64,000 bases of DNA from Marinomonas sp. SBI8L (lineage in GTDB: Bacteria; Pseudomonadota; Gammaproteobacteria; Pseudomonadales; Marinomonadaceae): assembly GCF_001624705.1 (NCBI RefSeq), contig NZ_JSEO01000008.1:124001-188000 (forward strand). The letters are read 5' to 3'. Of the stretch, positions 1-10,013 are shown piece by piece (positions within the stretch are counted from its first letter, which is position 1; every line of letters starts with the position of its first letter). Both the position numbers and the translations under genes were made by a program. The notes below the pieces were generated by a model. That model was not told the origin of the DNA. It saw only the letters and a list, made by a program, of their open reading frames with translations, and did no database searches.

Positions 1-846
1 CTTGGTACACGGATTCGTACCGAGCCCTTGAATGACATTGTCTATGAACTGGAATCAACTTATCCAATCGTGCTGGGTAAAGAGGATAACTCAATTAGTG
101 TGCCGGTTCGTGCTGTGGCAGAGGGCAAGGCCTATAACTTGGAAACGGGTCAATATGTGAACTGTGATATCCAAGGCGTCACTGTGACAAATCCTGATGG
201 TTGGATTCAAGTAGTAGGGGACGATGATGAAGACATTGAAGCTTATCGCCTGCGTATTCGTAATGCTTTTAACTCCTTAAGTCATTATCACACGGATGGG
301 GTATATCGACATTTGATTGCGAAGTTTGCCGGTGTCTCCACTGACATGATTTGGTTTGAACATGGTGTGAAAAGAGGTGGAACTAGCGTGGTGCCAGGCG
401 CGGCTGATGCTTATGTTTTGTTCGAGCTTGATGCCCCAGCTGACAGTTATCTAGAGATTATTAATCGCATGATAAGGGATGAAGGCTACCACGGGCATGG
501 TGATGATTTACTGGTTAAAAAAGTGCCCGATTTACTGGTAGACCTTGGTGTCACTGTTTATTTTCCTGTGGCATTAACAGCGGAAGAAAAGACAGCTAGT
601 TTGACAGGTATTGAGCAGGCGATTGAAGCGGCTTTTAGGTCAAATTCGGCTTATGTGATGACACAAACTCAGCCCTATTCTCGCTTTTCATTTACTCGGT
701 TAGCCAGTGAGGTTTATCAAAACTTTCCTGAGATAGAGAGTATTGATTTTAAGGCCATTACTGATGGGGAAGAGGTGATTGGAAGCCACATAAACGCTGA
801 ACTTGAAATCCCACGTTTGGCATCACTCAGTATACAAGAGGGTTAG
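1..846 (+). CDS. Baseplate assembly protein J (gpJ-like), 5' truncated by window edge
   Basis: The reading frame is open from base 1, so the gene almost certainly begins before the window; a TTG at 28 is in frame but is probably internal. The visible 281 or so residues carry the gp47/gpJ-type layout: a region with VPVRAVAEGKAYN and VTNPDG, then the acidic DDDEDIEAYRLRIRNAF stretch that in this family precedes the wedge domain. GpJ is a structural wedge protein of contractile-tail baseplates. The next gene is a gpI-like protein, the usual neighbour of gpJ in P2-type tails. The family call is confident; the start is not visible. Confidence 0.85.
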   Translation, partial: LGTRIRTEPLNDIVYELESTYPIVLGKEDNSISVPVRAVAEGKAYNLETGQYVNCDIQGVTVTNPDGWIQVVGDDDEDIEAYRLRIRNAFNSLSHYHTDGVYRHLIAKFAGVSTDMIWFEHGVKRGGTSVVPGAADAYVLFELDAPADSYLEIINRMIRDEGYHGHGDDLLVKKVPDLLVDLGVTVYFPVALTAEEKTASLTGIEQAIEAAFRSNSAYVMTQTQPYSRFSFTRLASEVYQNFPEIESIDFKAITDGEEVIGSHINAELEIPRLASLSIQEG

Positions 847-848
847 TG

Positions 849-1478
849 ATGGTTGCTAAATTTGAGTTGCCTGTATGGATTCGAGAAGGCAAAGAAATTA
901 ACAAGCTAGCGGATGCTTTTGCGACCTTTTGGGATAAAACGGAAGATTGGATAAAAACACCACTTAACCAGCTAGATGCCGAGACCTGCCATGTGTATGT
1001 GCTTAAGCTTTTGGCGTATCAAAATGATATTGACCGATTTGCTGATGAGCCAGATGAGCTCTTTCGAAAACGAGTAAAACACGGGGTAAAAAATGCCATA
1101 GATGCGGGCAGTAAAGGCGGCTTTAAAGAGGTTCTAGCACGCTTTGATGTGCCCTTGTATGGGCAGATAGAAAGAGACAGTGAAAGTGACTGGGATGTTA
1201 TTACCCTTTGGCTAGCTGACTCTAGTTTGACCCAAAATCCAGAGCTTGCTCACCATATTATTCGCCAATATGGCCGAACCTGTCGCCGTTATGAATTTTT
1301 GATGGTGGATGCTATTGAATCCATCGCCGTAGAGGGATTTAGCTTTGGTATTGATAGAGGGGTAGAGCAAATAAGTGGACGAACGGAATATGTATTTGCT
1401 GATACGACAGAGCCTGCTAAGGCAAGTATCGCTCAGCACTTTATTGAACGAAGTGAAGATAGGATAAAAGTAATTTAA
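849..1478 (+). CDS. Phage tail protein I (P2 gpI-like)
   Basis: A protein of 209 residues. Residues about 1-90 match the gpI pattern: FELPVWIREGKE, a Trp-rich FWDKTEDWI segment, DAETC, then LLAYQNDIDRF and LFRKRVKHGVKNA followed by AGSKGGF. GpI is a small baseplate wedge component made next to gpJ. GTG at 846 overlaps the gpJ stop, but ATG at 849 is better spaced from the GAGGG at about 838-842, so 849 is preferred. The C-terminal half is less conserved by eye. Confidence 0.82.
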   Translation: MVAKFELPVWIREGKEINKLADAFATFWDKTEDWIKTPLNQLDAETCHVYVLKLLAYQNDIDRFADEPDELFRKRVKHGVKNAIDAGSKGGFKEVLARFDVPLYGQIERDSESDWDVITLWLADSSLTQNPELAHHIIRQYGRTCRRYEFLMVDAIESIAVEGFSFGIDRGVEQISGRTEYVFADTTEPAKASIAQHFIERSEDRIKVI

Positions 1479-1487
1479 GGACGAATT

Positions 1488-2054
1488 ATGACAGACATAA
1501 TAAGTGGAACAGTAACAGATGCAGGGGCGCGCTACATTGCCCAAAAAGCTGCGAGTTTAGAACCTGTGGTGGTCACCCACTTTATCTTGGCTAATGTACC
1601 TGGTGTGGATGAAACCACACCAGCAGACCCGAGCATGGGGATACCAACAGAATATTTGATAGATGATTTTGTTGCAGTTCAAGACCCCCATTATAACGAT
1701 GACAATGCGGTGACTTACTCACTGGTACTAGACAGTAGTGTGGGTGATTATGACTTCAATTATTACGGCATAGTCACTGACTCGGGCGAGTTATTAGCCT
1801 ATTCCTATATCCCACTGAATAAAAAGCGAAAAGATATAGGTCAGGTGATTAACCGTAATCTGGTTGTGCCCTTTAGTAATGCTAAACAGCTTACGGGTGC
1901 AGATCTGCCATTGGAATCTTGGCAGTTTGATTACGAAGCCGAAATGCTCGCCATGCAGACCTGCATAATGCAAAACAGTGCAGCGACCATATCTGCTTTA
2001 TCAAGCGCCATTAAAAATCATGAAAGATTATTAACTTTGGAAGGGAAGCTATGA
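1488..2054 (+). CDS. Phage tail-collar fibre family protein
   Basis: A protein of 188 residues starting after an AAGGA ribosome binding site. The N-terminal half resembles the DUF3751 phage tail-collar fibre domain: TDAGARYIAQ, then FILANVPGVDE, a PADPSMGIP stretch, and a DYDFNYYGIV strand pair leading to LLAYSYIP. Such proteins attach fibres to the baseplate. It is shorter than full fibres of the family, so the fibre tip functions seem to be split into the following genes. Its stop overlaps the next start by 4 nt, which suggests translational coupling. Confidence 0.8.
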   Translation: MTDIISGTVTDAGARYIAQKAASLEPVVVTHFILANVPGVDETTPADPSMGIPTEYLIDDFVAVQDPHYNDDNAVTYSLVLDSSVGDYDFNYYGIVTDSGELLAYSYIPLNKKRKDIGQVINRNLVVPFSNAKQLTGADLPLESWQFDYEAEMLAMQTCIMQNSAATISALSSAIKNHERLLTLEGKL

Positions 2055-3037
2055 GTGAACTAAGCACAGCGACGGCAGCTTTAACGCTAGCTGCGTCTGA
2101 AATGAAGGAAGCGAAAGAGTCGTTTGAGTTAGTCAGGCAAGACGCGGATGCAGCCATTGATCAAGTACAACAAGAGATGCTGCCTACAAAAGCAGAAGTG
2201 CAAGTACATTCTGAAGTATTTGCAACCCATGGTCGTAAGAATCTATTAATCAATGGTAAACCGCTTGTTTGGCAAGCTGGCGAGTCATTTACTGAGACAG
2301 GTTATTGTGCTGATCAATGGTTCGCCAATTTATCTGGTGCGGTTTGTACAAAAGATGCTGATCCTGCAAAAGGTATTTTAATCAGCATTAATCAAGATCA
2401 AGGTTCTGGTCAGCTTCATCAATTGATTGAAGAGGGTGTTGTTCAGCAGCTAAGGAATAAAGAACTGACTTTTTCTGCTGAGTATGAAGTGAATAATCAA
2501 TTTGATGGTGACTTGGTGCTAGAGGTTTTTTATTCCAATGAGGGGGATGCCGAATCTGAGGTGACAAACTCACTCATTACTAAAAGGTTTACTCCAACGA
2601 AAAGTGTAGTCGGTGTTGAATCTCTGACTTTTACTGTTCCAAGTGATGCGCTAGGGCTCAGAGTCGCTATTTTACCTGCGATTGGTCAGCCAGTTAACTC
2701 GCAAATGGGGCTTTACAATGCCCAGTTAGAGACTGGTGCTTCAAATACGGTATTTGAAGTCACGCCGTATCAAGAAGAGCTTCTGAAGTGTTGTCGCTTT
2801 TTTTATGTATCAAAAAATTATCATTTTACACGTAATTACGCCAACGTGAATTTTAACGCAGATGTTTATCATCTAGTGCCTATGCGTACTTTACCGTCAA
2901 TTACACCGGTGTTTCCAGCAAGTAGTTTTGATGTGGCCATATGGCCGAATTATCTTGATTCGAACGAAAAATTTCATATGAACTCTAGTAGTGGTGGTAG
3001 TTGTATTAGTGGTTATATGGCAGATGCGAGGCTTTAA
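2051..3037 (+). CDS. Tail fibre-like protein A (receptor-binding candidate)
   Basis: A protein of 328 residues. Residues 1-45 form a helical module (ASEMKEAKESFELVRQDADAAI) recognisable again in the proteins starting at 3636 and 4661. From about residue 60 it has the fibre motif GRKNLLINGKPLVWQAGESF...GYCADQWF, typical of phage fibre domains with a carbohydrate-binding-like jelly-roll fold. The C-terminal 80 residues look unique, as expected for a receptor-binding tip. It overlaps the collar-fibre gene and is followed after 3 nt by a small partner gene. The fibre role is well supported; the receptor is unknown. Confidence 0.72.
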   Translation: MSELSTATAALTLAASEMKEAKESFELVRQDADAAIDQVQQEMLPTKAEVQVHSEVFATHGRKNLLINGKPLVWQAGESFTETGYCADQWFANLSGAVCTKDADPAKGILISINQDQGSGQLHQLIEEGVVQQLRNKELTFSAEYEVNNQFDGDLVLEVFYSNEGDAESEVTNSLITKRFTPTKSVVGVESLTFTVPSDALGLRVAILPAIGQPVNSQMGLYNAQLETGASNTVFEVTPYQEELLKCCRFFYVSKNYHFTRNYANVNFNADVYHLVPMRTLPSITPVFPASSFDVAIWPNYLDSNEKFHMNSSSGGSCISGYMADARL

Positions 3038-3040
3038 AAA

Positions 3041-3427
3041 ATGAAGATTGATACGGTTAAAAAAGTGGGTGATAGCTATTTGGTCAATGAAAAAATGGTT
3101 GTGCCTAATGTTAGTGAAAATGCTATGTGTCGCAAAGTTAAGGCTTGGCTAGAGGCAGGAAATACCCTTATTCCTGAGTTTACAGACACTGAATTAATGG
3201 CGTTAAAGCTTGCTGAAGTGGATGCTGAATGTACTCGTCGTATTGAGCTTTATTGGAATCAAGTCGGGCAACTTAATGCAGCCCTTGGGGTGTACTCTGA
3301 TGAAAATGCAGCCGCATGCAAACACTGGATTACTGCAAATCTCAATGCTCGAGAAACGCTACTAGAAAGAGCCGATATTATAAATATTGATGTGACAGAA
3401 AATGAGTATTGGCCTGAACTGCCATAA
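3041..3427 (+). CDS. Small tail-fibre partner / assembly-like protein A
   Basis: A protein of 128 residues, largely helical and acidic, ending in NEYWPELP. Its place directly after a fibre gene, and an ending like that of the product at 5638 (ELPWPEV), suggest a fibre assembly chaperone or cap. There is no clear match to a known chaperone family by eye, so the role is inferred from position. The start is ATG 3041, just after the fibre stop. Confidence 0.55.
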   Translation: MKIDTVKKVGDSYLVNEKMVVPNVSENAMCRKVKAWLEAGNTLIPEFTDTELMALKLAEVDAECTRRIELYWNQVGQLNAALGVYSDENAAACKHWITANLNARETLLERADIINIDVTENEYWPELP

Positions 3428-3635
3428 CGATTTGATACTTCAAATTTCTGTTTTTCTGGCTTGTTCCTAGCGGTTTCTAGCGATTCCTAGTGATTAAGTG
3501 ATCCATAGAAATAGGGTGAGTCTAGCTAGGTAAATGCAGAGAGTTTTTATCAGTATTAGAGAGATATAGAGAAACACTTTTAGCGTGTTTTGTGTTGAAT
3601 CAGCGATATAGCGCTGATAATAAAAGGAATTAATA
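3428..3635. other. Intergenic gap between fibre cassettes
   Basis: A 208-bp spacer that holds no convincing gene. It contains three near-copies of a short word (CCTAGCGGTTT, TCTAGCGATT, CCTAGTGATT) at about 3467-3495. The break separates fibre cassette A from cassette B and may carry a promoter or mark a recombination junction. I see no terminator with a clear T tract. Confidence 0.4.
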
Positions 3636-4592
3636 ATGAGTGATTTTACAGATTCTTTGGTGGCTATGAAGGATGCAACCGAAGAGCTAGTACAAGCAAA
3701 AGAAGTGTTTGAATCCATCTATGAGGGTTATCAAGGTGCCTTGGATGATTCAATTCAAACCTTACGTGATCTAGAGCGTTATGCCCAAGCTACGGGTAAA
3801 AATACCTTAGCTGTGGCCTCAGCGGCGATTGTCTCTGATTTAGCTCTTGGGGATGAGCTTTATCTCTTGATTACTGAAACCAATGATACAGCCTTAGTCT
3901 CACTTGATGTAAATGGCCAAGGGGCAAAAAGTATTGTCAATGTCACTGCCGCTAATCAGTTGTTTGCTGGTGCACTGGTCAAAGTACGTTATGACGGCAC
4001 GGCGTTTTATGTGATTGAGCAGGTGAACCCAAAAACAGGAAATGCTATTTCAGATATCGGCAAGTTAGTCATAGATACCACGGATATGCTTAGCATAGGG
4101 GAAGTTGCATTAAATGGTGCTGAAATTAGTCGAGAAGAATATTCGATTACCTGGGCCAAAATTAAAAATACCTCAAACTTAATTGATCAAGTCACTAAGG
4201 ATGCTGATCCGATTAGTTACGGTGGCTTTTGGGGCGAAGGAGATGGTTCAACCACTTTTACTTTGCCTATAGTGGGGGGGGAATTTATCCGTATGTTTGA
4301 CGATGGGCGCGGTGTTGATGATGAGCGTGGTTTTGCCAGTTATCAAGAGGATGCTATTAGAAATATTATTGGTGACTTTGGAAATGTTTTGTATCAAGTA
4401 GAACAAGGTGGGGGGGTTGCTAGTGGTGCTTTTTTAGCTGGAACTGGAGCGTATGGGGCTGCAGTGATACCAACTTCAGGAGTAACAGAAAATAATTTAG
4501 ATGGTATTGAGTTTGATGCATCAAGAGTGGTTCCTGTTGCAAATGAAAATCGACCTCGCTCTATCGCTTATTACGGTAAAACCCGCTTATAA
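3636..4592 (+). CDS. Tail fibre-like protein B with tail-collar-type C-terminus
   Basis: A protein of 318 residues. The N-terminus (about 1-45) repeats the helical module of the neighbouring fibres (ATEELVQAKEVFESIYEGY). Residues about 50-130 form a beta-rich domain. From about residue 190 the text GGFWGEGDGSTTFTLPIVGG, then EFIRMFDDGRGVDDERGF, is the phage tail-collar / short-tail-fibre signature found next to receptor-binding tips. A GGAAT ribosome binding site lies before ATG 3636. Unlike fibres A and C, no small partner gene follows. Confidence 0.78.
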   Translation: MSDFTDSLVAMKDATEELVQAKEVFESIYEGYQGALDDSIQTLRDLERYAQATGKNTLAVASAAIVSDLALGDELYLLITETNDTALVSLDVNGQGAKSIVNVTAANQLFAGALVKVRYDGTAFYVIEQVNPKTGNAISDIGKLVIDTTDMLSIGEVALNGAEISREEYSITWAKIKNTSNLIDQVTKDADPISYGGFWGEGDGSTTFTLPIVGGEFIRMFDDGRGVDDERGFASYQEDAIRNIIGDFGNVLYQVEQGGGVASGAFLAGTGAYGAAVIPTSGVTENNLDGIEFDASRVVPVANENRPRSIAYYGKTRL

Positions 4593-4617
4593 AACTTTAT
4601 AAGTTTCTATTACATAT

Positions 4618-4640
4618 ACCTAGGTCTTTTGAGCCTAGGT
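4618..4640 (+). repeat. Short perfect hairpin between fibre genes B and C
   Basis: ACCTAGG (4618-4624) and CCTAGGT (4634-4640) form a 7-bp perfect stem with a 9-nt loop. There is no T tract after it, so it is a weak terminator at best. It could be an mRNA processing or stability element between cassettes. Confidence 0.4.
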
Positions 4641-4660
4641 GAATTCAAGGATGAATTATT

Positions 4661-5641
4661 ATGAGTGAAATACTCGATGCCATTAGTGCATTAGGTGATG
4701 CAACAGCGGATATGACATTGGCCAAAGAGTCATTTGAAACCGTGCGCCAAGATGCTGAACAGGCCATTTCAGATCATTTATCTGAAGCAGATGCCCACAA
4801 CCAATATGTTAAAACCGACACCTTTGAGCAAGTTAAAAAACTGCCAATCTACCCTGAAGTTATGTCGGATGATAACAGGTTAGCGATGACGTTAGACAGC
4901 TCGGTATTAACTATCGAAGCGAATCAAATCATCAGGCTTTATGGCTGGTTAGAAATCAATACTTCTGATTATGCGGTGCGAACCTTTTCTATCAATGATA
5001 CGAAAACCTACCATCTGAGATTTAACCTAACGGATGGTTTTTATCTTAAAGATTTGTCGGACATTGGCTACAACCCTGATTCCTTTGACGAATCGGATCG
5101 TCTATTTGATACCAACTACGATGATATGAACTTGGCGCTTATCTTTGACGGGTTTTTAATGAGGTGTATTCATACCAATCAATTATCAAAAACGGCGTTG
5201 TTCAGCGGCGATGGTAGTATTGTGGTTCCTCTATGTCCAAGATTAAGGAGAGTCTGCTTATTATTTTCTAACCTTGAAGCAAGTGCTGGAGCTCAAAAGG
5301 TAAGTATTCCCGCAGAAGTTGATAAAGGTGGGCATGGCTATTTTTATTCAACGAATTCAAATGCAAATAATAATGTTTGGTCAAATAGCGGTGATATTAG
5401 GCTTGACACAAACAATGTTGGTAGTGATACCACAATATCAATAAACCATATTATTTTTAGTCCTAGATTGCAGAGGTTTCAAACAAGTCACTATATTACA
5501 GAATTGGATGAATCAAATGTTCATGAGTTTCTTCTTAGAGGTGATAAGGGAGAGTGTTTAGCAATTTGGAAAGAAGCAGGAATGACGTTGAATTATGTTG
5601 AAATAGCCTCAGCAAATATAACAGTGGAGTATTTAAGATGA
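4661..5641 (+). CDS. Tail fibre-like protein C (receptor-binding candidate)
   Basis: A protein of 326 residues. The N-terminal module (AKESFETVRQDAEQAI, about 21-36) is closely like that of the fibre A protein (AKESFELVRQDADAAI), then a DAHNQYV word typical of phage fibre shafts appears. The rest (about 70-326) is beta-rich and unlike fibres A and B. The last bases overlap the next gene by 4 nt. A fibre role is likely from the shared module and the locus; no known adhesin family is recognised. Confidence 0.68.
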   Translation: MSEILDAISALGDATADMTLAKESFETVRQDAEQAISDHLSEADAHNQYVKTDTFEQVKKLPIYPEVMSDDNRLAMTLDSSVLTIEANQIIRLYGWLEINTSDYAVRTFSINDTKTYHLRFNLTDGFYLKDLSDIGYNPDSFDESDRLFDTNYDDMNLALIFDGFLMRCIHTNQLSKTALFSGDGSIVVPLCPRLRRVCLLFSNLEASAGAQKVSIPAEVDKGGHGYFYSTNSNANNNVWSNSGDIRLDTNNVGSDTTISINHIIFSPRLQRFQTSHYITELDESNVHEFLLRGDKGECLAIWKEAGMTLNYVEIASANITVEYLR

Positions 5642-6066
5642 AAATATTAAAAGATGTTTTTGTTTCTCATACTGGTGAGCAGTTTTCAAAAGATCTAACC
5701 GAGTTTTATGTGGATCTTAGTGGTATTAAGCATGTCTCTCGCCAACATGCTTCCGATCAAGTAATGTCATGTCATTTCAACGATGCTTTAGTTAAGGATA
5801 ATGGTGTTTGGCGTGTTAGGAATGCTGATGATGACTACCAAGATGCTTATCAGGCTGTTGATGATGCGAGACAAGCGGCTTATACCGCTAGAGTGCGTCC
5901 GCTTCTTGAAGAGGCAGAGATTAAAGCGCATCTTGGTGAGAGTGATGAATATGCTCGTTTAATGGATTTAGCCGTCACAGAGCGGATGGATATTCAAGCA
6001 GAGCTCCCTTGGCCAGAAGTATTGGTAAATGTGGCTACTGAGGCGTCAGTGGATGAGTCCCCATGA
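5638..6066 (+). CDS. Small tail-fibre partner / assembly-like protein C
   Basis: A protein of 142 residues translated from a start that overlaps the fibre C stop. The second half is an alpha-helical, Ala/Glu/Arg-rich segment (DDARQAAYTARVRPLLEEAE) ending in ELPWPE, a layout common in small proteins encoded after phage fibre genes. A role in fibre assembly is inferred from context and from the likeness of its ending to the 3041 product. Confidence 0.55.
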   Translation: MKILKDVFVSHTGEQFSKDLTEFYVDLSGIKHVSRQHASDQVMSCHFNDALVKDNGVWRVRNADDDYQDAYQAVDDARQAAYTARVRPLLEEAEIKAHLGESDEYARLMDLAVTERMDIQAELPWPEVLVNVATEASVDESP

Positions 6067-6611
6067 TTACCCTCATTCTCAACAACACTAAAATCTCTGG
6101 TTATGGGGTGAAGGTGACGTGTGAGTTGGCTTTGCCGGAGGAGGACTTGTCTGGCCAAAGTTCTTCTTCGGCTACGGCTGAGAAGGGCTTTAAACCTAAG
6201 CGTCTTCGTGTGGCGATGAAGGTGAAATATGACGATGCATCTGAGCTTGCCAATATCGTTAGTTTGAGTACGGCTTTGGATGAAGATAAAGGTACTCGTT
6301 TGGTTTACAACATAGAAAACCAAACGGCGAGAGCCTTTGCTGTTCGACAAGTACGTTTCAGCGACAAAGTGTCGGCGCAAGAGTTGGATGATGATCAAGC
6401 CTGGTCTGTGTCTTTTGTCTTAGTCGAACACCTTTCTATCCCTGAAAAAGTGGAAGCCATGAAGCTTAAGCAGAATGAGCCTAAGGTGGCGACAGCGGAT
6501 ACCAGTGTTGCCTCTGAAGCTGAGAGTGGCGAAACCAGTAATTGGCTGGATAATGTGCTTAAGTACTTGGATTCAGCCCTAGCCGATGAGGGGGCAAAGA
6601 ATGAAATATAA
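6063..6611 (+). CDS. Phage baseplate-complex-like protein
   Basis: A protein of 182 residues. The N-terminal 130 residues have the pattern LILNNTKISGYGVKVTCEL, then DLSGQSSSSATAEKG, which I recognise from small tail proteins often annotated as baseplate complex protein in marine contractile phages. It overlaps the previous gene by 4 nt and precedes the hub gene, fitting a structural or hub-adaptor role. The exact position in the particle is unknown. Confidence 0.6.
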   Translation: MITLILNNTKISGYGVKVTCELALPEEDLSGQSSSSATAEKGFKPKRLRVAMKVKYDDASELANIVSLSTALDEDKGTRLVYNIENQTARAFAVRQVRFSDKVSAQELDDDQAWSVSFVLVEHLSIPEKVEAMKLKQNEPKVATADTSVASEAESGETSNWLDNVLKYLDSALADEGAKNEI

Positions 6612-7287
6612 CTTTGTACTCAAGGTAAATGGCGAGCGGGTGAATCTGGTTTCTCATGATGTTGCATTGGATGCGATGGCCGCTGGCCGTGCATCCTTTG
6701 TGGTGCAGTCTGAGAAAACCTTAACAGGGTCTGTCTATTTCAGTTTTGGGATTAATAACGGACAAGAGCATGGTCATTTTTATGGCTATATAGAGCGTTC
6801 GACGCCTGCTTCAAATCAGTCTCAAACCCTATTTTGTCGAGAAAAGTCTAATGTGTTGAGCATGCGTGTGCCCTTGGCATTACGTAATAAAACACTCAAG
6901 GATTTACTGACAGAGGTGAAAGCGATAACGGGCTGTGGCTTTAGCTTACCTCAGTCCAGTTATGCATCTACCCCTGTGCCTTATTTTGTTAATACGGGTT
7001 CTGGCTTTCATCTGCTAAATAAAATCGCCCAAGTATTTGGCATAGAGGATTTTACTTGGCAGCAAAAGCGAGATGGTCTTATTTATATTGGTGCTTGGCC
7101 TGATAGTCATTGGATCGATGCCCCTGTAGAGGTGCCAACAGCTGTGCTGGATAAACAGTTATCAACTCAAAGCGCTGAATTAATGGCGATTCCGGGTTTA
7201 AGGCCGGGTTACCTGCTTAATGGGAATCGTCTTTATAGCGTGAGATTGCAGGAAGCAAAAATGGTGGTGTCATGGAAAAAGCCTTAA
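6601..7287 (+). CDS. Baseplate hub protein (gpD-like)
   Basis: A protein of 228 residues. ATG 6601 is preferred over the in-frame ATG 6586 because an AGGGGG ribosome binding site at 6589-6594 is correctly spaced for 6601. The layout (N-terminal barrel, KTLKDLLTEVKAITG helix, then a region around ACKIAQVFGIEDFTWQQ-like text reading KIAQVFGIEDFTWQQKRDG) resembles gpD / late-control hub proteins that sit at the tail axis above the spike. It overlaps the spike gene by 16 nt. It is shorter than P2 gpD (about 390 residues), so part of the hub may be missing or supplied by the 6063 protein. Confidence 0.65.
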   Translation: MKYNFVLKVNGERVNLVSHDVALDAMAAGRASFVVQSEKTLTGSVYFSFGINNGQEHGHFYGYIERSTPASNQSQTLFCREKSNVLSMRVPLALRNKTLKDLLTEVKAITGCGFSLPQSSYASTPVPYFVNTGSGFHLLNKIAQVFGIEDFTWQQKRDGLIYIGAWPDSHWIDAPVEVPTAVLDKQLSTQSAELMAIPGLRPGYLLNGNRLYSVRLQEAKMVVSWKKP

Positions 7288-8012
7288 CGCGACTAATGCA
7301 AAAGAAATATCCCGAGTTAGCCTCAGGTTGGCATTTGCCTATGTGGGCGAAAGTAACGGATATTTTAACCCCTTTGGCAGGTGAGGTTGTGACAGAAGAA
7401 GCTCCTGTTTATTCTGTTTCAGTACAGCTTTTAGATGTAAATGGTGAGGAAGATACTGAGCTGCCGATTCTGGAAGATGTGCTTTTACCTGTGAATGCAG
7501 GTGGAGAACAGAGAGGTTTCTGGTCAAAGCCGAGTCTTGGTACCTTGGTTGAAATTGCCTTTATGTATGGCTCCCCCGCTCATCCTTTTGTTCGTTCTGT
7601 TTTCCCCCATGGTTTGAAGTTGCCTAACATGGCAGAGACTGATCAAAGGTGGCAGCAGTCTGAGCAGGCTTATATTCAAGTCAATCAAGATAATGAGTGG
7701 GAAGCGAAAGGCAAAAGTAGCAAGCTCACCATAGAGGAAGACTTAACTGAGCAAATTGGCAAACTACGTGAAATTATTGCGACTAAGCATCATGTGGGAG
7801 ATGAGTCGACAAATATCTATAGTCTGCTGCATGATTTAATGAATACAGTGGCTGATCTTGCGAATGTGGCAAGCTCTCATAATCATTCGTATTCATGGAG
7901 TGATCCAGGTGGTGCAGGGACTACTTCCCCGCCGATGCAATCCTCAAGTTACAGCCAAGCGAGTAGCCAAGCCAGTGAGCAAGCAGGTAAACTCGCGCCA
8001 TTGCTAAAGTAG
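7272..8012 (+). CDS. Baseplate spike protein (gpV-like)
   Basis: A protein of 246 residues. Residues about 20-130 form an OB-fold region with the gpV pattern: MWAKVTDI, VLLPVNAGGEQRGFWSKPSLG, then VEIAFMYGSPAHPFVRSVFPHG. A helical stretch follows (about 165-200), and the C-terminus has SSHNHSYSW, containing an HxH pair like the iron-binding tip of P2 gpV spikes, followed by a Ser/Gln/Ala-rich tail. The spike pierces the target outer membrane during contraction. It is the last gene of the tail locus. Confidence 0.78.
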   Translation: MEKALTRLMQKKYPELASGWHLPMWAKVTDILTPLAGEVVTEEAPVYSVSVQLLDVNGEEDTELPILEDVLLPVNAGGEQRGFWSKPSLGTLVEIAFMYGSPAHPFVRSVFPHGLKLPNMAETDQRWQQSEQAYIQVNQDNEWEAKGKSSKLTIEEDLTEQIGKLREIIATKHHVGDESTNIYSLLHDLMNTVADLANVASSHNHSYSWSDPGGAGTTSPPMQSSSYSQASSQASEQAGKLAPLLK

Positions 8013-8031
8013 CCTTTTTTAAGTAATAAGC

Positions 8032-8066
8032 GGCTGGTATTTGATTATGCCAGCCTTTTCTTTTTT
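8032..8066 (+). terminator. Rho-independent terminator after the tail locus
   Basis: GGCTGG (8032-8037) pairs with CCAGCC (8050-8055), with two further pairs inside including a G-T, followed by TTTTCTTTTTT. It isolates the tail genes from trpGDC. Confidence 0.85.
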
Positions 8067-8370
8067 ACCTTCTTCTCAAGATTAGCCCCCTTTTTGTTTA
8101 ATTATTCTTAAAGCGTTACAAGCACTGCTATACAGGTGTTGTTGGATTTTTTGATAAATGAATGTCGTTTTAAAAGAGGGAGTTTATTTTAGTCTTAGCA
8201 GCTATATTGAAATACAAATCTAGTGTTAGAGTTACAGTGATAAATAAGATAAAATCCGCGCCAATACGTCATTATTTATCTGTATTCAAGTGTTTGAAAG
8301 GGGTGATAATAGGGGTAATTCAAACATATTATTTAAATAAAACCTTTAGTTTCAATGGCTTGAAATATTT
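8067..8370. other. Intergenic region between tail locus and trpG
   Basis: About 300 bp with no gene. It should hold the trpG promoter, but I cannot place a confident sigma-70 site. An inverted repeat, TGTTTGAA (8291-8298) with TTCAAACA (8319-8326), lies about 45-80 bp before trpG and could be an operator or leader hairpin. No attachment-site repeat or integrase fragment is visible at this edge of the tail locus. Confidence 0.5.
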
Positions 8371-8949
8371 ATGTTACTAATGATCGATAATTACGATTCC
8401 TTTACTTATAACCTAGTACAATACTTTAGAGAACTAGGTGCTGAGGTAGGAGTTTATCGTAATGATGAAATTACCTTAGAGAAAATTGAAGCACTAAATC
8501 CCTCTCATTTAGTGATTTCCCCCGGACCTTGCACACCGAATGAAGCCGGTGTGTCTTTGGCTGCGATTGAATACTTTGCCGGAAAAATACCTATTTTAGG
8601 TATTTGTTTGGGACATCAGAGCATTGGACAAGTGTTTGGTGGTAAAGTAGTTCGTGCCAAACAAGTAATGCATGGAAAAACATCATCGGTACATCATACG
8701 GATTCGTCATTGTTCCAATCGTTACCTAATCCTCAACTTGTTACCCGTTATCATTCTTTAGTGGTAGAGCAAGATTCGTTGCCTGCGTGTTTAGAAGTGA
8801 CCGCATGGACTGAAGGATGTGAGGGTGAGCTAGATGAAATTATGGGACTCAAACATAAAACCCTTCCGATTGAAGGCGTTCAGTTCCATCCAGAATCAAT
8901 ATTAACGGAAGCAGGTCATGATCTGCTTGCTAACTTTTTAAAGCGATAG
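8371..8949 (+). CDS. trpG: Anthranilate synthase glutamine amidotransferase component
   Basis: A protein of 192 residues, full length for the family. It releases ammonia from glutamine for anthranilate synthase (TrpE), the first committed step of tryptophan synthesis. Visible class I amidotransferase features are [17 protein letters not shown] at the start, [11 protein letters not shown], the nucleophile Cys79 in GICLGHQ, and the His-Glu pair in [10 protein letters not shown]. PabA is a close relative, but trpD and trpC follow immediately, so trpG is favoured. TrpE is not in the window; if the gene order is like that of P. aeruginosa it would lie beyond the tail locus. Confidence 0.95.
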
Positions 8950-8957
8950 GAGACATA

Positions 8958-9992
8958 ATGGATATTCAAAGCGCCATTGCCACTGTTATTGAGCAGCAGC
9001 ATTTAAGTGCAGAAGAAATGCATGAAGTCATGCATTCAATTATGACTGGAGAAGCGACACCATCACAAATTGGTGGCTTTTTGGTAGGCCTTCGCATGAA
9101 AGGTGAAACAGTTGCTGAAATTGCCGCTGCTGCAAGTGTAATGCGTGAGCTGTCTTCTAAAGTCGAATTATCAAATATTGATAATATTATCGATACCTGT
9201 GGTACAGGTGGCGATGGTGGAAAGCTATTTAATGTTTCTACCGCATCATCTTTTGTTGTTGCCGCAGCAGGCGGCAAGGTTGCTAAGCATGGTAACCGTT
9301 CGGTTTCGTCAAAATCGGGTAGTGCTGACTTATTAGAAAAAGCGGGTGTAAACCTAGCATTGTCTGCTGAGCAGGTAAAAACCTGTGTTGAAGAAGTGGG
9401 TTTAGGCTTTATGTTCGCCCCCAATCATCACTCTGCAATGAAGCACGCTATAGTACCTCGTAAGGATATGGCTGTTCGTACTATTTTCAACTTGCTTGGG
9501 CCACTGACAAACCCTGCTGGTACAAAACGCCAAGTAATGGGGGTGTTTGATAAAAAATGGGTTCGTCCTATGGCGGAAGTGTTGCAGCGTCTAGGTAGCG
9601 AACACGTAATGGTTGTTCACTCTCAGGATGGTTTAGATGAAATCAGTTTAGCTGCACCCACTTTTGTCGCTGAACTGAAAGACAATGAGATTCGTGAATA
9701 TAGTATTCAACCAGAAGATTTTAATATCGAAACTCAATCAATCGCGCCACTTCAGGCAGAAAATGTAGAAGAAAGCTTAGAGCTTGTACATGGTGCGCTA
9801 GAAGGCAAAGGTGCGGTGAATCCTGCTCGTGATATTGTTGCTCTAAACGCGGGTGCAGCAATTTATGTCGCTGGCATTGCTGATAACCTTGCTGAAGGTG
9901 TTGCTATTGCTGAAGATGTGATTGGCGGTGGCTTAGCGCGAGTGAAATTAACTGAACTAGCAGCATTTACGCAATGCTATCTAGATAACTAA
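8958..9992 (+). CDS. trpD: Anthranilate phosphoribosyltransferase
   Basis: A protein of 344 residues, normal for the family. It joins anthranilate to PRPP to give phosphoribosyl anthranilate. Diagnostic motifs are DTCGTGGDGGKLFNVST, the KHGNRSVSSKSGSADLLE substrate loop, and NLLGPLTNPAG. It starts 8 nt after trpG with an AGGAGA ribosome binding site, so both are in one operon. Confidence 0.97.
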   Translation: MDIQSAIATVIEQQHLSAEEMHEVMHSIMTGEATPSQIGGFLVGLRMKGETVAEIAAAASVMRELSSKVELSNIDNIIDTCGTGGDGGKLFNVSTASSFVVAAAGGKVAKHGNRSVSSKSGSADLLEKAGVNLALSAEQVKTCVEEVGLGFMFAPNHHSAMKHAIVPRKDMAVRTIFNLLGPLTNPAGTKRQVMGVFDKKWVRPMAEVLQRLGSEHVMVVHSQDGLDEISLAAPTFVAELKDNEIREYSIQPEDFNIETQSIAPLQAENVEESLELVHGALEGKGAVNPARDIVALNAGAAIYVAGIADNLAEGVAIAEDVIGGGLARVKLTELAAFTQCYLDN

Positions 9993-10013
9993 ATTTTAGG
10001 AATTGTGGTTAAT

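Follow-up and report, generated by a model that had tools for sequence, protein, structure and literature searches.

The window, a 64,000-nucleotide stretch of Marinomonas DNA (C67:124001-188000), opens inside a cluster of phage tail genes which begins in the stretch directly upstream (L002, C67:104001-124000). The source genome, G000, comprises 5.19 Mb in 69 contigs. The element spans about 21 kb, from L002:6653 to window position 8012. It starts with an S24-type repressor on the minus strand (L002:6653-7405), followed by orf181, a gpA replication protein, Ogr, an alpha/beta hydrolase, a DUF4262 protein and a 595-aa DUF7217 protein, the last also on the minus strand. After these come GpR, an HP1-type sheath of the DUF2586 family (L002:14630-15739), the tube, an amidase (L002:16190-16594), a phrog_2524 protein, a holin (L002:17031-17213), the tail chaperone, the tape measure, a DUF2590 protein and baseplate protein J, whose gene starts at L002:19653. 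The nearest named match of the sheath, at 93%, is in Marinomonas sp. MED121.

Within the window all of these features lie on the plus strand. The 3' part of J (1..846, assigned by Baseplate_J and a match to HP1 orf29) is followed by tail protein I (846..1478; Tail_P2_I, phrog_1228) and by a tail-collar fibre N-terminal (docking) protein without the receptor-binding part (1488..2054; Phage_tail_fib and PHROG fibre families). Three fibre genes and two small ORFs come next: fibre 1 (2051..3037, phrog_4492 tail fibre); a small ORF behind it which by position only, with no family match, is a possible fibre chaperone (3041..3427); fibre 2 (3636..4592, phrog_1858 tail fibre); fibre 3 (4661..5641), which matches phrog_17588, a family of unknown function, and has an N-terminal stretch resembling fibres 1 and 2; and a fibre assembly-type protein (5638..6066, phrog_3916 tail fibre assembly). 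The cluster closes with an HP1 ORF34-type baseplate protein (6063..6611, PF25759), the baseplate hub (6586..7287, phrog_2258) and the baseplate spike (7272..8012; phrog_4011, with Phage_base_V below the cut-off). The three fibre-type genes (2051-5641) are alike in their N-terminal stretch and are preceded by one separate docking protein, an arrangement by which one particle might carry several receptor specificities.

Behind the spike, a terminator-like stem followed by a T run is found at 8032..8055 on the plus strand (one found, against a mean of 0.2 in shuffles), and across a gap of 358 bp the tail cluster with its terminator gives way to trpG (8371..8949, plus strand), trpD (start at 8958) and trpC (start at 10005). 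This bears out the preliminary description, which had placed a contractile-tail gene set, ending in a terminator, directly upstream of trpG-trpD-trpC; the tail genes in 1-8012 are of HP1 type. The same description had seen no integrase, lysis or capsid gene between spike and trpG, which holds, and no attachment repeat, which does not. Paired repeats with a 12-bp spacing at 8300..8318 (plus strand) are read as a remnant of phage attR arm sites, and the first ~20 bp of trpG are read as the phage attachment site, with the attachment core ATGATCGATAA at 8380-8390. This feature is recognisable solely through comparison with complete prophages.

Gene content and left flank of the element

The gene set of an R-type tailocin is complete, with sheath, tube, tape measure, chaperone, J, I, hub, spike and fibres. 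It is accompanied by a lysis cassette of the tailocin kind (amidase and holin) and by the S24-peptidase repressor, which is a candidate for damage-inducible control. Pfam and PHROG family scans and the comparison with HP1 found no capsid, portal, terminase or integrase in the element or upstream of it, so the earlier proposal of a tailocin-like headless element is upheld. Of 28 HP1 proteins, 10 are matched in the G000 stretch, namely the rep protein, nine tail proteins and no head protein, whereas complete relatives do match HP1 portal, terminase, scaffold and capsid. The HP1-like terminase of one such relative, G046, used as a query, matches G046, G030, G008, G019 and G005, and has no match in genomes G000, G036 and G041. 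The G030 integrase has no match in the G000 locus at 1e-8 or in the G000 genome at 1e-60, and a search for attL, a flanking copy of the trpG start, found none for the G000 element. No P2-type Ogr box common to the sequences upstream of gpR was found. In gpA, G000 has a His at the position of the second motif Tyr, a motif that is catalytic in P2; G036 and the relatives keep the Tyr.

Extracellular contractile injection system (eCIS) clusters of the Afp/PVC type carry an AAA ATPase. The AAA family is absent from the Pfam scans of the element's proteins, and membership in this class was rejected on that ground.

On the left, the element is flanked by a two-component system and a type VI secretion (T6SS) cluster, then by mscS, gph and rpe, giving the order rpe-gph-mscS...T6SS...element-trpG. 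The preliminary description had likened the place to the R/F-pyocin address between trpE and trpG, and this part fails, since trpE is absent from the far side: the two Anth_synt_I_N (trpE-type) hits are away from the element, on contigs C3 and C56. As a separate observation, the T6SS cluster (L003, L002:1-3123) lies directly left of the headless element and the same adjacency is seen in G036, which places two contractile systems side by side.

Complete and headless forms at trpG across Marinomonas

The survey of the genus covered 49 Marinomonas genomes and 48 trpG loci, as G042 gave a paralogue only. The HP1-type sheath was found in 8 of the 49 genomes, six of which (G000, G036, G030, G008, G019, G046) carry it on the trpG strand, upstream of that gene. 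The G046 case spans two contigs: the one with the prophage stops within trpG and shares 41 bp with the one that holds trpG. The mgtE-trpG interval is empty, at 207-380 bp, at 28 of the 48 loci, holds 1.1-9.4 kb of other genes at 10, and is replaced at three by mscS adjoining trpG with no mgtE; one locus (G017) is left unassigned. In G020, which is presumably M. mediterranea strain MMB-1, mscS lies 477 bp before trpG, so there is no tailocin at that site. Complete HP1-like prophages of 37-40 kb occupy four loci (G030, G008, G019, G046), and the headless element occupies two (G000, G036), in two species, G036 being a MED121-type genome. Both stages are thus present at one Marinomonas locus. In G036, about 13 kb of other genes, including LysR-type regulators and metabolic-looking ORFs, separate spike and trpG (L012:1146-14109).

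All four complete trpG prophages have a tyrosine integrase at the mgtE end (in G030 with the domains Arm-DNA-bind_3 and Phage_integrase), preceded in every case by a trpG-start copy at a distance of 184-185 bp. The copies match the true trpG start at 17 (G019), 17 (G030), 20 (G008) and 20 (G046) of 20 positions, and in each of the four prophages none of 2000 shuffles equalled this. The left flank of G019 aligns to the empty site of G029 with 95% identity over ~500 bp, and the alignment ends ~24 nt inside trpG. From the copies beside the integrase and this empty-site comparison, the phage appears to integrate into the first codons of trpG and to provide a new start.

On the right side, a GGGTA-type repeat occurs twice with a 12-bp spacing, ~71 and ~59 bp ahead of trpG. 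A GGGT[AG] pair, a motif picked after inspecting the Marinomonas prophages, is present in all 6 genomes that carry an HP1-type element at trpG, among them G000 and G036, and at 0/42 other Marinomonas loci. The first repeat of the G000 pair has a one-base difference (GGGTG), and G036 retains the pair beside trpG despite the ~13 kb that now lie before it. We take the repeat pair to be what is left of the founding phage's attR. Of 48 Marinomonas trpG starts, 21 contain the exact attachment core, which is hence not universal.

The preliminary description had left a choice between shared descent with the pyocins and repeated use of the site. Repeated use is favoured, because four other Marinomonas genomes have complete HP1-like prophages in that very place, with the trpG 5' end as attachment site. 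Common descent with the Pseudomonas R/F-pyocin cluster could draw on the position on the same side of trpG and on rpe-gph, which is found upstream in Pseudomonas-family loci too. Against these points, the sheath belongs to a different family (DUF2586), most Marinomonas loci have the empty interval, and complete HP1-like phages with an integrase occupy the same place, so this already disfavoured descent is very improbable. The description had also argued from the differing gene order against a simple recent transfer of an R-pyocin, and rightly so: the order is that of HP1, as is the sheath type.

In G000 and G036 alike the tail genes are uninterrupted reading frames. Several pS values in this comparison are near saturation, so pN/pS is used for direction only: the structural and amidase genes give pN 0.014-0.163 and pS 0.37-0.70, the fibre-region genes pN 0.065-0.185 and pS 0.44-0.68, the holin pN 0 and pS 0.098, and the repressor, open in both, pN 0.021 and pS 0.507; trpG itself gives pN 0.036 and pS 0.572. 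Three non-element neighbours deviate in this run: HK through an error at its reading-frame start, TssK, the G036 copy of which is shorter, and a kinase with 46% identity. These values bear on whether the element is a decaying, functionless prophage remnant whose head module was deleted and whose other genes have yet to degrade. Such decay would fit the loss of integrase, attL and head and the changed Tyr of the G000 gpA motif, but it seems unlikely, as the tail, lysis and repressor genes stay open in both genomes with pN far below pS, and their synonymous divergence is similar to that of trpG. Within the element, the alpha/beta hydrolase and DUF4262 genes (L002:10262-11783) stand apart, with pS of 0.08 and 0.14, far under their neighbours, and were likely exchanged recently.

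The retention of gpA, Ogr and orf181 is unusual for a tailocin and speaks against that reading. The element might instead be a tail donor or satellite-like element which combines its own tails with the heads of another phage and uses gpA and Ogr in doing so. Both genes are conserved (gpA pN 0.107, pS 0.590), and G005 and G041 hold what looks like a mobile element that is tail-only yet has an integrase and a primase. However, G000 and G036 have neither integrase nor attL and no HP1-like terminase in the genome, and we consider this role improbable.

The tape measure has 466, 504, 547 and 549 aa in headless elements and is longer, at 684, 688, 704 and 746 aa, in those complete elements that were seen (HP1, 689). 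In every tail-protein tree G000 and G036 fall together (support 96-100). The placing of G005/G041 is weak for sheath plus tube (38), hub/spike (56), gpR (44) and the concatenate (50), and they group with complete phages in the TAC tree (97) and the J/I/DUF2590 tree (98). A single headless ancestor for the G000/G036 and G005/G041 forms is unsupported by these trees.

The G005 and G041 elements (G005 C1, L075 + L021; G041 C1, L076 + L023) are ~25-30 kb long, with a full HP1-like tail and no head gene matched. They also encode an HP1-type integrase, an 880-aa Toprim primase-like protein, Ogr and DUF7217, and are flanked by exact direct repeats of 60 bp and 46 bp which resemble a tRNA 3' end. Each looks like a mobile tail-only element.

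The trpG start as a probable integration target outside Marinomonas

The G030 integrase was used as a query against 390 genomes of the order and gave 82 matches at 1e-60; trpG was tested in 28 of these 82 integrase-positive genomes and was present in 27. In five genomes (G174, G314, G331 and G083 of family f36, and G417 of f43) integrase and trpG share a strand, with the integrase 36-70 kb upstream. A trpG-start copy precedes the integrase by 235-253 bp in all five, with matches at 18 (G174), 17 (G314), 16 (G331), 22 (G083) and 17 (G417) of 24 positions, which were reached by 0, 1, 5, 0 and 0 of 2000 shuffles, respectively. Each of the five also shows two copies of one hexamer at a 12-bp distance, placed 69-76 bp ahead of the codon that aligns with codon 1 of trpG. 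No HP1-like tail genes were found in the cargo of those five genomes in the stretches read. In G124 the integrase match is on the trpG contig, 114 kb upstream of the gene.

From its rpe-gph-trpE order and its R-tailocin content we take the genus of G140 to be Pseudomonas. Of 25 genomes of this genus, two (G423 and G435) have a GGGTA-type pair upstream of trpG. The order in G435 is rpe, gph, trpE, repressor and R-tailocin, trpG-start copy, integrase, ~43 kb, repeat pair and trpG. Its tailocin matches 6 of 7 tail-region ORFs of G140, three at 92-95% and three at 31-62%, and its trpG-start copy (21/24, 0/2000 shuffles) lies 186 bp before an integrase which is 39% identical to that of G030. The copy, the integrase and the repeat pair suggest that the trpG start is used as an attachment site in G435 too, beside an existing tailocin. 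In G423 (L106), the trpE-trpG insert is 5.7 kb with the repeat pair at trpG, and no related integrase was found in the 6.6 kb read.

In the stretches read, the GGGTA-type pair was found in none of 15 genomes of G140's genus with tailocin genes beside trpG, which are 14 of 24 fetched genomes (one on a single gene) and G140. A looser test, for any hexamer repeated 11-13 bp apart, was positive at four other loci of the Pseudomonas set, of which two have trpE and trpG side by side, and also in G271 and G068. For the Pseudomonas set, the GGGTA-type motif alone is therefore informative. No tailocin-adjacent locus of the sample keeps the pair, and the idea that the Pseudomonas tailocins themselves go back to an attachment site remains a hypothesis.

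It is an evenly balanced proposition that one lineage of Arm-DNA-bind_3 tyrosine integrases has, across the order, a conserved attachment site in the first codons of trpG, and that unrelated tailocins recur at trpG for this reason. Prophages would arrive there, lose head and integrase, and be retained; if true, a standing phage entry point explains why tailocins keep arising at trpG.

Origin of the element and comparison with known systems

Gene content, descent from a phage that used the trpG attachment site, the loss of the head and conservation in two species are established here. We think it likely that an HP1-like temperate phage left the element behind and that the host domesticated it as an R-type tailocin. 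This phage would have entered the first codons of trpG through its tyrosine integrase, then shed the integrase, attL and all of its head and packaging genes, and the host lineage would have kept the remnant. On DNA damage, the S24-type repressor would cleave itself, the early genes (orf181, gpA, ogr) would be expressed, and the tail and lysis genes would follow via Ogr. Headless contractile tails with up to three fibre kinds would assemble, holin and amidase would lyse the producer cell, and the released tails would bind and perforate related bacteria. Judged by its kind, the element probably serves to attack rival bacteria.

Among the new points, the strongest is the attachment site at the trpG 5' end, with complete and headless stages of related phages together. 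A trp-locus address is now tied, in another genus, to a specific integrase target. Because complete prophages are found where close relatives keep the tail only, domestication from phage to weapon at trpG is directly testable.

In the literature seen, mostly without subscription papers, no mention of a phage attachment site in trpG was found, and an earlier description is possible; the same partial literature gave no reason for the trp-locus address of the pyocins or the P. syringae tailocin. The accessible text of one paper reports a predicted P. aeruginosa prophage, WX-3, which includes trpG and whose predicted att sites gave no PCR band (PMC12456005).

The R-pyocins of P. aeruginosa are located between trpE and trpG (PMC10598620, PMC7344871). 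The window element resembles them in its predicted headless contractile tail, lysis genes, repressor and place directly upstream of trpG, but has an HP1-type tail, has trpE elsewhere and keeps gpA and Ogr. The R-pyocin sheath is of the R-pyocin/P2 type, which is absent here, the sheath being HP1-type DUF2586. The tailocin of P. syringae is of Mu-like origin. It is similar as a tailocin of independent origin at the trp locus, and differs in phage ancestor and tail type. Its position is next to trpG (PMC12208367). For MEDPRO2, an R-type bacteriocin of Marinomonas mediterranea, the published report describes 12 kb with no capsid genes and no replication genes, and proteins closest to R2 pyocin of P. 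aeruginosa (PMC10870725). The window element, probably an R-type tailocin of Marinomonas too, likewise lacks capsid genes; MEDPRO2 is R2-pyocin-like and has no replication genes, whereas the window element is of HP1 type with gpA.

The closest likeness is to phage HP1 (Hpunavirus, Peduoviridae), in tail gene content and order and in Rep/gpA. HP1 has head genes and another integrase, different from the Arm-DNA-bind_3 integrase of the trpG prophages, whereas head genes and integrase are both missing from the window element. The HP1-type tail, seen here along with retained gpA and Ogr, joins the candidate ancestors of tailocins.
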